From a virus, in IMG/VR virus record IMGVR_UViG_3300002460_000002, positions 31,155-95,154 of that record: a stretch of 64,000 bases of DNA. The stretch is one strand, 5' to 3'. The notes beneath the pieces were generated by a model. That model worked only from the letters and a program-made list of their open reading frames with translations. It made no database searches and was not told the DNA's origin. Shown piece by piece: positions 29,148 to 36,350 of this stretch (its first letter is position 1; each line of letters starts with the position of its first letter). Both the position numbers and the translations under genes were made by a program.

Positions 29148-29343
29148 TACCCCTGACGGGATTTGAACCCGCATCACACGCGCAAGAAAACTTCTTTGGA
29201 AACGCGCTTCCCTTCCAAACTCTCTCGAACCTGGTTCGGTGCATCCGCAACCACTGTTTTCTCCGACTCGTCAGTCGTCACGTGGGCCAGTTACGGCGCC
29301 GGTTCCGTTTTTCCGGTGGATATCCTCTTTTTCCTACAGGGGT
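29148..29343 (-). ncRNA. Structured tRNA-like RNA with split acceptor stem
   Basis: On the minus strand a T-arm (GCGGG TTCAAAT CCCGT, 29172-29156) is followed by CAGGGGT (29155-29149). Its exact partner ACCCCTG lies at 29343-29337, followed by TA and a D-arm-like stem GGA/TCC with GG and A in the loop. The 125 or so bases between contain several hairpins (for example CGACT/AGTCG, CGAAC/GTTCG, TTTGGAA/TTCCAAA) and no recognisable anticodon arm. CCA is not encoded. It may be an intron-bearing tRNA, a reduced tmRNA-like RNA or a new tRNA-like RNA. The T-arm is certain; the rest is inference. Confidence 0.45.
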
Positions 29344-29347
29344 ATGA

Positions 29348-29569
29348 ATGACATTGTCACGACAAACTATTCGTGACAAGCTCTTTCTCATGCCCGCGAA
29401 ACTCGCTCCTCATGAAGAGACTGTTGTGGTTCAGTTCAAGATCCCGGCGACGTTGAAGCGTAAGGCGGCGAAGCTGGCGAAGGAATCGGGCGACGGGGAC
29501 GTGTCGCACTGGATCCGTCGGCAGATTCACAACGCGTGGAAGGCTGCGGAAGCGCAAGAAGAGCGTTAA
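29348..29569 (+). CDS. Ribbon-helix-helix-like DNA-binding protein
   Basis: ATG 29348 after AGGGG gives 73 residues; ATG 29390 (59 residues) is the alternative start. The core VVVQFKIPATLKRKAAKLAK...VSHWIRRQIHNAW is a beta strand and two helices, as in Arc/CopG-like repressors. An exact 9-bp inverted repeat covers 29354-29379 near the start and would suit autoregulation. Convergent with the lipoprotein gene, whose stop it overlaps. Confidence 0.75.
   Translation: MTLSRQTIRDKLFLMPAKLAPHEETVVVQFKIPATLKRKAAKLAKESGDGDVSHWIRRQIHNAWKAAEAQEER
29354..29379. promoter_or_regulatory. Inverted repeat, probable operator
   Basis: TTGTCACGA (29354-29362) and TCGTGACAA (29371-29379) are perfect inverted 9-mers separated by 8 bases. 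They lie at the start of the RHH gene and may be its operator. If ATG 29390 is the true start the repeat lies just upstream of it. Confidence 0.6.
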
Positions 29570-30572: not shown

Positions 30573-31105
30573 GCGGGTACTTTACCACGGCGCTTGCGAG
30601 GCACACTACCTGGCGCAGCTTCACCAAAATCAACGAGACCGTGCAGACTCTTGCAGGATTCTCCCCCTACGATGACGTGATCAAGAACCGGGATCCCGAT
30701 GAGACGGCCTGCGTCGATCAAGCGCTTCGTCAAGGTGATGTCGCTAGAAGACGGTTCGGGATTTCCCGAGGGGTGATTATGCGACACTATTACACTCGAA
30801 GCGTTGGAGAGAATCGCGCCTTTGAATAACTCCCGCGGGTTGACTTCGACCGATCCAACGGCACCTTTGGAGACCTCCTCGAATCCTACGACGCGATGAC
30901 TAACGTCCAGGTGAAGGGCGTAGAAACTCTCGCGGTCGGCCGCGCCGATCTTCTTTTCGCGGAAGAAAGCACAAGCGTCGTCTCCGTTTTTCACTGTTTG
31001 TGAGAGGGGGGCCTGCTTGGTCATGCAGAGCCGAACTGTCGAGTTGGGCCCGACCGGGCCGCAGCTTGTCTCTGTTCCCGGGTCCGTCTTCTTGCGAGGC
31101 GCCAC
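30569..31105 (-). CDS. RadC-like JAMM-motif protein
   Basis: The product has 178 residues from GTG 31105, or 151 from ATG 31024, which looks equally natural. It contains the JAB1/MPN metal motif VSHNHPSGNPEPSSSD (His109, His111, Ser114, Asp122 in the long form) of RadC-family proteins. RadC was linked to DNA repair, but its real role is unclear. In mobile elements it often accompanies restriction or anti-restriction genes. Its start lies close to the divergent peptide deformylase start. Confidence 0.85.
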   Translation of the reverse strand: MAPRKKTDPGTETSCGPVGPNSTVRLCMTKQAPLSQTVKNGDDACAFFREKKIGAADRESFYALHLDVSHRVVGFEEVSKGAVGSVEVNPRELFKGAILSNASSVIVSHNHPSGNPEPSSSDITLTKRLIDAGRLIGIPVLDHVIVGGESCKSLHGLVDFGEAAPGSVPRKRRGKVPA

Positions 31106-31127
31106 GGTGTCAGGATACCATGACCCA

Positions 31128-31610
31128 GTGGTCAGGAAAATCCTGCGGTACCCCGAAGCGCGGCTGAAGGAAGAATCGTGGCCGGTGACCGATTTCGCGG
31201 CACTGCCTGCGCTGGTTATCGACTTGGTGGAAACGATGGGCTCTGTGAAAGGACTTGGGTTGGCTGCGATTCAGATCGGAATTCCGTTACGGGTGTTCGT
31301 GATTCACCCCGAGCTATCGCTGACCAATCAAGTATTCGTGAACCCTGAAATCGTGTCTGGTAACGGGGCTACTTTCGATGAAGAAGGCTGTCTTTCGTTC
31401 CCGAAAATTCGCGTGCAGATCCAGCGAAAAGAGCACGTGCGGATGAAGGCCAAGGATTCAATCGGCACGGAATTCGTGGTTGACGCCGATGGTCTGTTAG
31501 CTCGGGCGTTGCAGCACGAGATTGATCACCTGGATGGGCGCCTGTTGACCGACTACGTGAGTTCGTCACGATGTGGTCGAATCAGGCAACAGCTTTTGCG
31601 CGGCGGTTGA
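31128..31610 (+). CDS. def: Peptide deformylase
   Basis: GTG 31128 gives 160 residues, normal for the family, with the characteristic opening VRKILRYPEARLKEES. All three motifs are present: GLGLAAIQ (42-49), EGCLS (86-90, metal Cys88) and QHEIDH (His130 and His134 ligands, Glu131 catalytic). It removes formyl groups from new proteins. Phage PDFs are known and may help fast production of phage proteins. The reading frame is open further upstream, antisense to radC, and I regard that part as non-coding. Confidence 0.9.
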   Translation: MVRKILRYPEARLKEESWPVTDFAALPALVIDLVETMGSVKGLGLAAIQIGIPLRVFVIHPELSLTNQVFVNPEIVSGNGATFDEEGCLSFPKIRVQIQRKEHVRMKAKDSIGTEFVVDADGLLARALQHEIDHLDGRLLTDYVSSSRCGRIRQQLLRGG

Positions 31611-31747: not shown

Positions 31748-33967
31748 ATGTCTCTCGCCAACCAGGTCGTAGAGTCCTTCAACAACGCTGCTGGCGTCAC
31801 GTTGTCTCGCGGCATGATCGTGCGCGGAACGACCGGAGTCCGGCAGACGGTGCTGGCCCAGGCCGACACGTTGGCGCATCTGGCATCGATTATCGGCGTC
31901 GCCAACAACGGGACGGGGCCGACCGGGCTTTACTTCGCGACCGTGGCTGGCGAGGTCGAGGTTTTGCTCGAGACTGGTCTGACACCTACAGCGACGCAGA
32001 TCGTGTACGTGTCTGCTTCCGTAGCCGGACGTGGGACGACGGCGGCTCCGACTCTGGCAATTCCGATGGGAGTGATCACAGACGCGTCTTCATACTCTCT
32101 CAGCGGCCGGGTGATGGTTTCGCTGTTCGCGTTATTTGCGTCTAACGCGACGCCAGCCCCACCGTGGGACCCGACCCTGGTCCGGTACTGGTTCATCGAC
32201 AACGAGAACGGCAACGACGCGAATGTCGGCTACATCGATGCCGCGGCATTGACGATCTTCACACCAGCGCAAACCAGTCCGGTGGCACTCAGAACATCAG
32301 AAGAGATGCGGAAACGGCTCCCGCGCTTCGGACAGGCACTTAGTACGGTCGCACTCTACAAGCCGCGTTCCGACAACGGCAACTACCTGAACAAGGCTGG
32401 AGCCAGTGACTACTTGGACACCGGGTATGCTGGGTACGCGTACATCGCGTTTCGCGCATCGGATCTCACAAACAGTGTGAATGATCGATCTGACATGGCG
32501 GGCGTTACAAGCTCCGCCGGTCCGAATGCGGATGGTTCGTGGACAGCGACCGGTATGGTCGGCTATACGATCACGAATGGTGCAGGTGTCCTTCCCGCGA
32601 CCGACACGGTTGCCGGACTCAAAGTCGAGTACCAAGGCAACGTCACGGCGGGTCTCCGCAATATCGGAAACACAGTTGTTGATCGAACCGGTGCTACGCT
32701 ACTTGATACCGGTGTAGGTACGACACTGGCAGCCCTTGCCAACGGAGATCAATACTACCTTCGCGCGCCTGGTGTGAGGTTTACTCGTCCTGTGATTCCG
32801 TTCGGCGGCCTCAACGGGCCCAACAACTACAATGGGCAGTTTCCGGTGTGCGGGATGCGTTGGACGGGCACCATCGGCGTGTCTGGAAGTCCGGTCGGGG
32901 TGAATTTTCAACCGGTTTTCAACCGATTCGATGCTGATACGTATCTCGTTTCCGCACCGGAGTTTACTGCGCCGCTTTCTTATTATTTGGAGGATGGCGC
33001 TACCACCGTCTCGACTTTTTGCACGATCGACGCACGGGCAATCTTCAACGCGTACATCAACGGTAAATCGAATCTGTCGATGCCGGCGTTTCACAGCACT
33101 ACCGATCTGTTGTTCGGTAGCAGCGATTTCTCTATTTTCAATTCTGGATATTCGACGCTCGCGCCCACTGTTACAAATGTTCGAGGGTCAGTTGGGACAA
33201 ACGCCAGCAACACGATAGGCGCGCAGTTTGCTGTTGCCGCCAATCTGTTCCGTCCAACACGATTTATTGCCGGTATTGCATTGAATGGGTATGCAGGATT
33301 CGTGCTCTCGATCGATCATGGAGGGGCAACCAACGGGATTGTTTTCGGGCGCGATTGTAATTTTACGATTGGCTCCGGGGGCGCACAGCCGCAAGGAACT
33401 TCGGGAACTTCGGCTCTTGCGGGTGTGTCGTCTGTTGGATCAACGGTTGTCGTTGTAGGCACTGCCGCCGTCGGTACAACGCAAGATGTACTTTTGGCCG
33501 GTTCGGTAGTCGCGACGTTCGCGAGCCTTGCGACGTCACCACAGATGGATGCCCAGAACAACACGGTTCAAGGATCCGCTGGAGCGCCGGTCAAGAAGAC
33601 CGTCTTGAAGTTTTCTGGTGTGTTCGTCGGTGCGGCTGGCGCCAAGACAGATTTTTTGGCCGATTCGGGTCCGTTCGCTGGTGCAGTTCTTGATGCTGTT
33701 GTAGTCAACTATCCAATGCCGGCCTGCCGCGTGCGCAATTTGCGGATACAAGCAAGTTCAAACCCGCTCGGCGCCAATCTCGTCGTGAGGGTACTCAAGA
33801 ATGGTGCGGCCACCGGTATCACTGCGACCATCACAACCGGATCCACCGCACTTTTTTCAGACTTGACGAACGAGGGACAATTCGCCGCTGGTGACAGACT
33901 CGATATTGACATGACGGAGACCGGCGCCGGAACCGCGCTTCTCGCGGCATCGTTGGAGTGCTACTAG
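31748..33967 (+). CDS. Fibre/spike-type structural protein A
   Basis: The 739-residue product begins MSLANQVVESFNNAAGVTLS. Its first about 130 residues are nearly identical to those of the next gene product. After that both become beta-rich, Gly/Ala/Thr/Asn-rich, repetitive proteins of different sequence. A shared N-terminus with different C-termini is typical of tail fibre or tailspike proteins that attach to the virion by the same anchor. The C-terminal third looks like beta-strand repeats ending in a compact domain. Weak TTGCCA/AAGAAT promoter boxes precede the ATG and no Shine-Dalgarno site is seen. Confidence 0.8.
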   Translation: MSLANQVVESFNNAAGVTLSRGMIVRGTTGVRQTVLAQADTLAHLASIIGVANNGTGPTGLYFATVAGEVEVLLETGLTPTATQIVYVSASVAGRGTTAAPTLAIPMGVITDASSYSLSGRVMVSLFALFASNATPAPPWDPTLVRYWFIDNENGNDANVGYIDAAALTIFTPAQTSPVALRTSEEMRKRLPRFGQALSTVALYKPRSDNGNYLNKAGASDYLDTGYAGYAYIAFRASDLTNSVNDRSDMAGVTSSAGPNADGSWTATGMVGYTITNGAGVLPATDTVAGLKVEYQGNVTAGLRNIGNTVVDRTGATLLDTGVGTTLAALANGDQYYLRAPGVRFTRPVIPFGGLNGPNNYNGQFPVCGMRWTGTIGVSGSPVGVNFQPVFNRFDADTYLVSAPEFTAPLSYYLEDGATTVSTFCTIDARAIFNAYINGKSNLSMPAFHSTTDLLFGSSDFSIFNSGYSTLAPTVTNVRGSVGTNASNTIGAQFAVAANLFRPTRFIAGIALNGYAGFVLSIDHGGATNGIVFGRDCNFTIGSGGAQPQGTSGTSALAGVSSVGSTVVVVGTAAVGTTQDVLLAGSVVATFASLATSPQMDAQNNTVQGSAGAPVKKTVLKFSGVFVGAAGAKTDFLADSGPFAGAVLDAVVVNYPMPACRVRNLRIQASSNPLGANLVVRVLKNGAATGITATITTGSTALFSDLTNEGQFAAGDRLDIDMTETGAGTALLAASLECY

Positions 33968-33983: not shown

Positions 33984-36350
33984 GTGTCTCTCGCCAATCA
34001 GGTCGTAGAGTCCTTCAACAACGCTGCTGGCGTCACGTTATCCAGGGGCATGATCGTCCAAGGGACGACCGGTGCTCGACAGACGTTGTTGGCTCAAGCT
34101 AATACGTCAGCCAACTTGGCGTCGATCATCGGCGTCGCGAACAACCAGACCGGGCCGGGCGGGCGCTACTTCGCAACCATTGCGGGTGAAGTAGAGGTTT
34201 TGCTCGAGACTGGATTGACCCCGACCGCGACGCAGATCGTGTACGTGTCTGCTTCCGTGGCCGGACGTGGGACGACAGCGGCGCCGGTGCTGGCGGTTTC
34301 GATCGGCATGATCACGGACGCGTCTTCGTATTCGCTCAGCGGCCGGGTGATGGTTTCGTTGTTCGCGCCGAATGCGACGTCAAGCATGAATTGGGATCCG
34401 AATTCGGTTCGTTACATGGCGGTCAGCTATGCGAACGGAAGCGATTCCAATTTAGGTTACTCCGACGTTTCAATGGCTGCTGCAGGCGCTGTTGCACTCA
34501 AAACACTGACGGCGCTCACAACTAAGTTGCCCGTCATCGGGGCGGGTCGGAAAGTCGTCATTGCGATCGAATCACGTGCGGCCGGAGCCAACTACCTCAA
34601 GCCAGACGGATTGACCAACGATGATTTGCTGCTGCTTGGCATCTACGGCTACGAAAAGATGTTAGTGCGCGGAACGATCACTGACGCGACCGCCGGATCG
34701 GTGGCCTTCGCCAATACCGCGGCCGACAAGCTCATGGCCGGGTTCATCCGTGCGCCGGGGACGAACACAGCTGGGTACAACGTCACCGTCAACACATCAA
34801 ATCGGCAGAAGACCGTCCAGCTTGCTGGTGGCGGCGCGGTGGCTCTTGCTACCAACTACACGTTCAGGTCGTTTCGGATCCGATTTGACTCGGCGACGAC
34901 AACAGCGGGGCTCCGCAACGTCACGCGGCAGCTTTCGTTGGTGAGCGGCGCCGGAAACGTGTTTCATCTCGATGAGGATCTGCCAGCCGTGCCGGTGACC
35001 GGAAATTCCGGTGACGTTTTCTACATTGAGGCCGCAGGGGTTTCGGTAGCATCACTCAAGACCAGCATTCAGAACGTGCACAACTTCACAGTGAATCTGA
35101 CCGGGGATACTTCACGGGTAGGCGCCACGACGATCGTCGGCATCAAACAGACCTTGACTGGGAGTCCTGCATCGTTCGGTGCCTTTTCGATGAAAGGCGT
35201 CGGTGACGTACTTGAAATGTGTGGTGTATGGGGCAACGCCGCGATTCAGGTCGTCACAGGACAGTACATGGTTGCGATGACTCCGTTTTACAACGACGAA
35301 ACGGAAACGTTGATCCGGGTCGGATGCGGTTTCAAGAGTGACGCCGCGTTGGCGACTTCGATCGGCGACTTGTTCGACGGCACACAAGTCGCCAATCTAG
35401 ACATGACCTCGTCGTCTTTTTCGGCGTCGGTCGGTTGTCAGGTTGTTGGATGTCATTACCCCAACATCGGTATGGGTTGTTCGTTCAATTGTCTTCTCGT
35501 GAATTCGTGTGGATGGGACACGACAGAGAGCGCGATTGCTAACTCCATCGGCATTGCATCTTCAGCAACGAAGAAGCCGCCATTGGTAGATGGTACCGAC
35601 GGAAACTTGAAGGCTTTCAGCATCGAAGACTCTCAAGTTACGCTTCGGCTTATTGAGTGCATCAACGCGGGTTCACTTCCGGCGATACGCGCTTCTGGTA
35701 CTAGTGTGCGCTTGGATATCGCTGGGCCGTTTGGATCGACCGGCAACAACGCTCATGGTTTTGAAATTGTTGATAGTTTCGGTGGTTCGTTCTTTTTTAC
35801 GTCAGCCACGACGGTCACAGGTGCGCTGGGTGACATCAATCTTGCTGGCACCGTGACGGCTACCTACGCCGGATTGCTTCTCACGAATGTGGTTGATGAT
35901 AACAGCAACGAGGTCGAGGGCGCAGGCGGGCATGTGGTGTCGGCTTGCAAACGCGTCGTCAACAAATCAGGCGTCGCGCTCACGGTTGGCGCCTTGGTTC
36001 GTAGTAATGGAACGACCAATCAAGTCACCAGCGCTTTTGGTAACGATGCTGCGGCCGGAAACTCCAATGTTGTCGGTGTCATGATCACGTCTCCTGCTAA
36101 CGATGCAAACGGCCACATGGCCTGTGCTGACGCGCCGGTCTGTAACTTTGATGGTGTACCGACCATAGGTGCCATTGCATATTTGTCACCGACGACGACG
36201 CGCACGTTGACGACGACGATTCCAGCACTTGCTGCGAACAACAACAAACTTCGTGTTGGCCGTGTCATTCAAGCTATCGGCGCCGGCAACGACGCACGGG
36301 TGGCTTGGCACCCGGAAAATCTTGCTGTCGTGGCCGACGGCGCGGCCTAG
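33984..36350 (+). CDS. Fibre/spike-type structural protein B
   Basis: The start is GTG 33984. The 788-residue product repeats the N-terminal anchor of fibre A almost exactly for about 130 residues. It then diverges into a beta-rich region containing many Gly/Asn turns, consistent with a beta-helix receptor-binding or depolymerase-type spike (residues about 250-640). A C-terminal module of about 130 residues follows (RVVNKSGVALTVGALV, DGVPTIGAIAYLSP, RVGRVIQAIGAGNDARV), resembling a small beta domain found in other phage structural proteins. It ends convergent with the gene at 36347. Confidence 0.8.
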   Translation: MSLANQVVESFNNAAGVTLSRGMIVQGTTGARQTLLAQANTSANLASIIGVANNQTGPGGRYFATIAGEVEVLLETGLTPTATQIVYVSASVAGRGTTAAPVLAVSIGMITDASSYSLSGRVMVSLFAPNATSSMNWDPNSVRYMAVSYANGSDSNLGYSDVSMAAAGAVALKTLTALTTKLPVIGAGRKVVIAIESRAAGANYLKPDGLTNDDLLLLGIYGYEKMLVRGTITDATAGSVAFANTAADKLMAGFIRAPGTNTAGYNVTVNTSNRQKTVQLAGGGAVALATNYTFRSFRIRFDSATTTAGLRNVTRQLSLVSGAGNVFHLDEDLPAVPVTGNSGDVFYIEAAGVSVASLKTSIQNVHNFTVNLTGDTSRVGATTIVGIKQTLTGSPASFGAFSMKGVGDVLEMCGVWGNAAIQVVTGQYMVAMTPFYNDETETLIRVGCGFKSDAALATSIGDLFDGTQVANLDMTSSSFSASVGCQVVGCHYPNIGMGCSFNCLLVNSCGWDTTESAIANSIGIASSATKKPPLVDGTDGNLKAFSIEDSQVTLRLIECINAGSLPAIRASGTSVRLDIAGPFGSTGNNAHGFEIVDSFGGSFFFTSATTVTGALGDINLAGTVTATYAGLLLTNVVDDNSNEVEGAGGHVVSACKRVVNKSGVALTVGALVRSNGTTNQVTSAFGNDAAAGNSNVVGVMITSPANDANGHMACADAPVCNFDGVPTIGAIAYLSPTTTRTLTTTIPALAANNNKLRVGRVIQAIGAGNDARVAWHPENLAVVADGAA

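Follow-up and report, generated by a model that had tools for sequence, protein, structure and literature searches.

The 64,000-nucleotide stretch of DNA analyzed here (the window), which is part of a 96,328-base IMG/VR phage record, carries on its minus strand a 196-nt RNA gene that is built on the plan of a tRNA but lacks an anticodon. The RNA belongs to a family that is certainly real and widespread, with members in phages, in plasmids of Bacillaceae and Listeria, and at one conserved chromosomal locus of Peribacillus. The initial annotation of this locus had described acceptor halves that pair exactly over 7 bp, a TA followed by a D-arm-like hairpin, and a canonical T-arm, all of which are indeed present on the minus strand. 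It had also offered a new tRNA-like RNA as one of several readings, and this is the one that holds: the acceptor, D, T, and inner stems covary across the family, the core is invariant, and Rfam 15 has no such entry. The layout of the window copy is given in Table 1.

Table 1. Elements of the tRNA-like RNA gene in the window, listed from the 5' to the 3' end of the RNA below the whole gene.
Element	Position	Strand	Remarks
Whole tRNA-like RNA gene, 196 nt	29148..29343	-	5' end at 29343, base 73 (A) at 29148; 96.7 bits with held-out model
Acceptor stem 5' strand, ACCCCTG	29337..29343	-	7/7 pairs covary; 100% paired in family alignment
U8-A9	29335..29336	-	T8 invariant in family alignment
D-arm, D-arm-like GGAAAAAGAGGATATCC	29318..29334	-	3-bp stem GGA/TCC, GG in loop
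Hairpin H1, CCGG-AAAAACGGAA-CCGG	29299..29316	-	Anticodon-arm position; constant loop, no U33; 4/4 pairs covary
Copy-specific insert between H1 and P2, two short hairpins	29263..29298	-	Missing in minimal 154-nt members
P2 helix 5' strand, AGAAAAC	29256..29262	-	7 bp with 29185-29191
Core motif 1, TTGCGGATGCACCG	29237..29250	-	T, C, GA, and GCACC invariant
Core motif 2, AGGGAAGCGCGTT	29201..29213	-	AGGGAAGCG and GT invariant
P2 helix 3' strand, GTTTTCT	29185..29191	-	Partner of 29256-29262
T-arm, GCGGG-TTCAAAT-CCCGT	29156..29172	-	13.5 bits against T-arm of Rfam tRNA
Acceptor stem 3' strand, CAGGGGT, then A73 (29148)	29149..29155	-	No encoded CCA

ARAGORN at standard settings and Rfam 15 at gathering score returned nothing in the window, and a permissive cmscan recovered the T-arm only, at 13.5 bits. 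The folding energy of the window RNA alone is unremarkable (z of -1.69), so that the "four or more strong hairpins" read from the letters are not exceptional in energy; the consensus fold of the family lies only 1 kcal/mol above the MFE on this RNA, however. A scan for the two halves (a T-arm and a 7-bp partner followed by T), run under loose criteria on shuffles, gave zero or one loose match per 96 kb of shuffled sequence, and across six related genomes the window RNA was the single convincing match. R2, a covariance model from which the window sequence was left out, scores the RNA at 96.7 bits (E, 1.2e-28), whereas its second-best match in the window reaches 7.1 bits. The acceptor stem of this copy contains C3-G70, and within the core the GG of motif 2 pairs with the CC of motif 1, and CG with CG.

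With a gap of 25 nt, the window RNA precedes a thioredoxin-like gene that is likewise on the minus strand; a scan of the RNA locus found no sigma-70 promoter. Directly upstream of the RNA, at the start of an open reading frame (ORF) on the plus strand (29348), positions 29354 to 29379 form a perfect 9-bp palindrome, TTGTCACGA-N8-TCGTGACAA, which may be an operator common to the RNA and this divergent ORF. Elsewhere in the window, positions 31017 to 31610 encode a phage peptide deformylase (Pfam Pep_deformylase, 146 bits), and two adjoining large proteins (31748 to 33967 and 33984 to 36350) are near identical over their N-terminal 130 residues or so and then diverge.

Blastn with the window against phages gave no DNA-level homologs, and loci sought through the proteins of close neighbors yielded none. 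An exact T-arm pattern had no match over the viral contigs, and no phage relative identified via DNA polymerase has a copy of the RNA. The closest of them shares the flanking thioredoxin-like gene; because the close relative G001 keeps the flanking genes without a copy, the RNA is dispensable. Running a pattern of both halves over 84,980 prokaryote genomes matched a single place, in Peribacillus sp. Bi96, where a 197-nt RNA has the identical plan and identical inner motifs. Blastn then identified 18 plasmid records from Cytobacillus, Peribacillus, Bacillus, Priestia, and Listeria, in which the RNA is unannotated and, in 17, near full length. Patterns made from the shared motifs matched 16, 20, 22, and 21 viral contigs in overlapping sets, about 60 viral contigs altogether; many of the IMG/VR contigs with the RNA are fragments. 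Cultured Streptomyces phages also have it (Kela, Alone3, Emma1919, GiJojo, and pSt2308 among others), and most of the matched places in them bear no annotated feature of any kind. A copy is found in 13 of 43 genomes of the Peribacillus family and is rare in the wider phylum around it (4 of 398).

Model R1 gives ordinary tRNAs up to about 40 bits, and members were counted only above about 55 bits. Blast matches in mycobacteriophages (E of 0.5, annotated as tRNA-Trp or tRNA-Pro) do not score at family level and were taken as ordinary tRNAs. Several copies drew attention individually. In one phage contig (G026, L085) the RNA is present twice, as two differing copies with about 5 kb between them. 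The copies in Listeria plasmids L043 and L059 are identical to that in L042 until the last acceptor base (CAGAGGA versus CAGAGGC), as if the 3' end of the RNA were a recombination junction. Among Cytobacillus plasmids, the copy L046 is identical to L041 except for 16 nt deleted from its core region, and it is possibly decaying.

The 60 distinct members reduce to 36 representatives of less than 90% identity, whose lengths range from 154 to 278 nt, one mis-parsed case being excluded. Because of this range, and because the indels are not multiples of three, a reading frame conserved across the family, such as the open 35-codon one noted in the window copy, is unlikely. An alignment of 26 sequences has the order acceptor (7 bp), T8-A9, D-arm, H1, P2 helix, core motifs, and T-arm, with the core motifs TT-CRGA-GCACC and AGGGAAGCGYGTT (as RNA, UU-CRGA-GCACC and AGGGAAGCGYGUU). 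Plasmid and Peribacillus copies keep AAAA in the H1 loop and have ACATTGTAG or a similar sequence in place of ACGGA. For the 26 aligned sequences RNAalifold gives a structure of 28 pairs, 22 of which show double changes, and 95.7% of the cells are paired. Covariation of the acceptor halves in homologs, which the initial annotation had set as a test, is found in all seven acceptor pairs; all four H1 pairs and all four P2 pairs covary as well, and the strongly covarying stems are the acceptor, D, T, H1, and P2. Double-change cells number 159, compared with 43 ± 5 in shuffles (none of 500 reaches the observed count) and 14 to 41 in slid structures. Similarly, the best P2 helix has a family mean of 5.62 with each member's own partner strand versus 4.66 ± 0.16 with shuffled partners from other members. 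About 30 nucleotides around the internal loop are invariant, and the distal hairpin loop is constant, across 26 diverse sequences. We conclude that an invariant core is held in a tRNA-like frame at the place where a tRNA carries its anticodon, and that the frame is under selection. A weak in-order likeness to the family core in E. coli 23S rRNA (positions 1141 to 1201, L206; ATGCACCGAA ... GTAGGGGAGCG) was rejected: a few per cent of shuffles match, two invariant positions are missed, and R2 scores the segment at 8.3 bits (E, 0.7).

The acceptor stem is mismatch-free in 35 of the 36 representatives, among which 31 distinct 5' strands occur, and 25 have A as base 73. CCA is encoded directly after base 73 in 6 of the 36, versus 0.6 expected (binomial probability of about 2e-5). 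Because the CCA falls exactly at this position, the ends of the RNA are probably matured like those of a tRNA, through RNase P cleavage and the addition of CCA. The RNA lies between tRNA genes in Streptomyces phages and is also found within tRNA arrays of metagenomic phages. The Peribacillus RNA occupies one chromosomal locus in about eleven genomes (about ten besides Bi96; L190-L198, L200, L201), with a gene for an HTH regulator upstream and an antisense N-acetylmuramoyl-L-alanine amidase gene downstream. Its promoter is of the sigma-A type (TTCACA-N17-TATAAT), and the leader is about ten bases long.

The acceptor stem, U8, D-arm, T-arm, and position in tRNA arrays are all features of phage tRNAs, ordinary or intron bearing, but the family has no anticodon arm, and P2 and the core stand between its D- and T-arms. 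An intron-bearing tRNA, one of the identities first considered, would be a tRNA gene split by a new small intron and spliced to a decoding tRNA. Apart from the array location, this reading draws on ARAGORN in intron mode, which reports a tRNA-Pro(cgg) with a 100-nt intron in the window; that prediction lacks U33, however, and the same mode yields two spurious matches in the relative G001. Nor do the presumed exons join into a normal anticodon arm with a 7-nt loop, U33, and an anticodon. H1, which occupies the position, is a closed, covarying stem, and because its loop is a constant AAA(A)CGG of lineage-variable size without U33, no anticodon can be assembled, still less a variable one. Further, the acceptor sequences of the members are unrelated, though the supposed anticodon would be identical in all of them, and we regard a spliced tRNA as very unlikely. 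A reduced tmRNA, also suggested at the outset, is more improbable still. The likeness to tmRNA (ssrA) consists of tRNA-like ends with a free acceptor, an inserted domain, and the absence of an anticodon, but the family is half the size and has another core. The Rfam tmRNA models match neither the window nor the members tested, in which Rfam 15 at gathering score recovers neighboring tRNAs only. ARAGORN below its usual threshold (40%) reports "tag not identified," and G3:U70, the alanine identity pair of tmRNA, occurs in only 2 of 26 members. In addition, Streptomyces BE2 phages have a separate tmRNA (PMC13191466). We give practically no credence to the idea that the halves pair by chance around a ribosome-binding site belonging to the plus-strand ORF at 29348. 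CAGGGGT is well spaced ahead of the ATG of that ORF and may additionally be its ribosome-binding site, but the suggestion that it serves solely as one is contradicted by the covariation of the acceptor stem, with its 31 distinct sequences, and the homology found by the held-out model excludes chance.

Two further readings accept the family and differ in what the core does. In one, the RNA is a partner of Ro (TROVE) in an RNP, that is, a non-permuted Y RNA in which P2 and the core form the Ro-binding stem. TROVE/Ro genes are present in 16 of 39 RNA-bearing records, from roughly eleven lineages and with all 8 of the cultured Streptomyces phages that were searched among them, compared with 87 of 50,697 phage records (0.17%) in a background obtained with one Ro query, and in G018 and G015 the Ro gene lies within about 1 kb of the RNA. 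Bacterial Y RNA also mimics tRNA, and in YrlA the two termini make up the Ro-binding stem (PMC8394870), whereas all members of the new family have theirs in the acceptor stem. YrlA is likewise noncoding, mimics the D- and T-arms, occurs in phages beside Ro genes, and co-occurs with the family, but it is circularly permuted (T-arm, capped acceptor, D-arm) with no free CCA end, while the family has the normal order, free acceptor ends, an inserted conserved core, and many carriers without Ro. Wang et al. are said to have described, in 2018, a tRNA-like part of YrlA without a free end. In a scan for permuted tRNA-like RNAs, of the phage Ro genes checked, most had copies next to them whose topology and position, the sole criteria used, are YrlA-like; such phages therefore own both RNAs. 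Nine Ro-bearing phages outside the family have no family-level match, and no Ro gene was found in the window phage, two RNA-bearing plasmids, or eight Peribacillus-family genomes. Because many carriers are without Ro and nine Ro phages are without the RNA, the link reflects a preference for a type of genome and does not make Ro the partner of the RNA, which is favored in phages rich in tRNAs and RNA repair. The RNA and Ro may both merely follow large tRNA-rich genomes, and we judge a Ro partnership unlikely. The other reading, a ribozyme or ligand-binding RNA that uses the tRNA frame just for processing and stability, strikes us as improbable to a similar degree: the invariant nucleotides and constant distal loop are as in catalytic or ligand-binding RNAs, but neither a self-cleavage site nor a regulated gene is apparent, and the neighboring genes vary between hosts.

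The circularly permuted tRNA-like arrays beside phage Ro/TROVE genes occur in several copies per phage and have a recurring GGTTACTTC motif. They were located at L156 (W08:25700-26420), L157 (W07:9300-10020), L146 (VanLee), L150 (Atuin), L155 (a Microcystis phage), L107 (G018), and L104 (G009), and are apparently unannotated YrlA Y RNAs.

The reading we favor, and hold to be moderately probable, is that of a free-standing noncoding RNA of an undescribed family on a tRNA frame, which is matured like a tRNA, does not decode, and acts as a scaffold or decoy that displays its core to a partner. In phages the RNA would be transcribed with its neighbors, in tRNA arrays or, in the window, upstream of the thioredoxin-like gene, and in Peribacillus from its own sigma-A type promoter. 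RNase P would take off the 5' leader, and the tRNA machinery of the host would trim the 3' end and add CCA. The elbow of D-loop and T-loop would produce a stable, protected, tRNA-shaped body, in which the position of the anticodon and variable arms is taken by a module of H1, with its constant loop, followed by P2, with its invariant internal loop. Since the acceptor sequence is free, the RNA would neither decode nor be charged by one particular synthetase. Its core would be the working site and would bind a protein. The RNA would mimic a tRNA yet offer no anticodon loop to be cut, and it may serve mobile elements in tRNA damage, repair, or defense by acting as a scaffold or decoy; this role is a tentative assignment, to which we give clearly less than an even chance, whereas our confidence in the family and its tRNA frame is much higher. 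The tRNA-scaffold RNAs of biotechnology (Ponchon and Dardel) likewise hold a foreign RNA inside a stabilizing tRNA frame, but they are artificial, their insert replaces the anticodon stem, and they have no sequence relation to the family.

Within the literature on tRNA-like phage RNAs outside subscription journals, we found no description of this family, and an earlier one is possible. To our knowledge, the well-characterized classes of bacterial RNA that mimic tRNA are tmRNA and YrlA only. Each of these opened new biology, and here a further class would join them. That the family is a third natural class, which phages and plasmids have spread and which is fixed at a chromosomal locus of Peribacillus, with a core that binds a protein or is catalytic in conflicts over tRNA or the ribosome, is a proposal we regard as evenly poised. 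The class was overlooked by ARAGORN, by Rfam, and by the annotation of the records, yet it is present in cultured Streptomyces phages, in Listeria and Bacillus plasmids, and in Peribacillus chromosomes. The RNA also offers an entry point, at the level of a gene, to the question of why large phages rich in tRNAs have RNA-repair and Ro systems.
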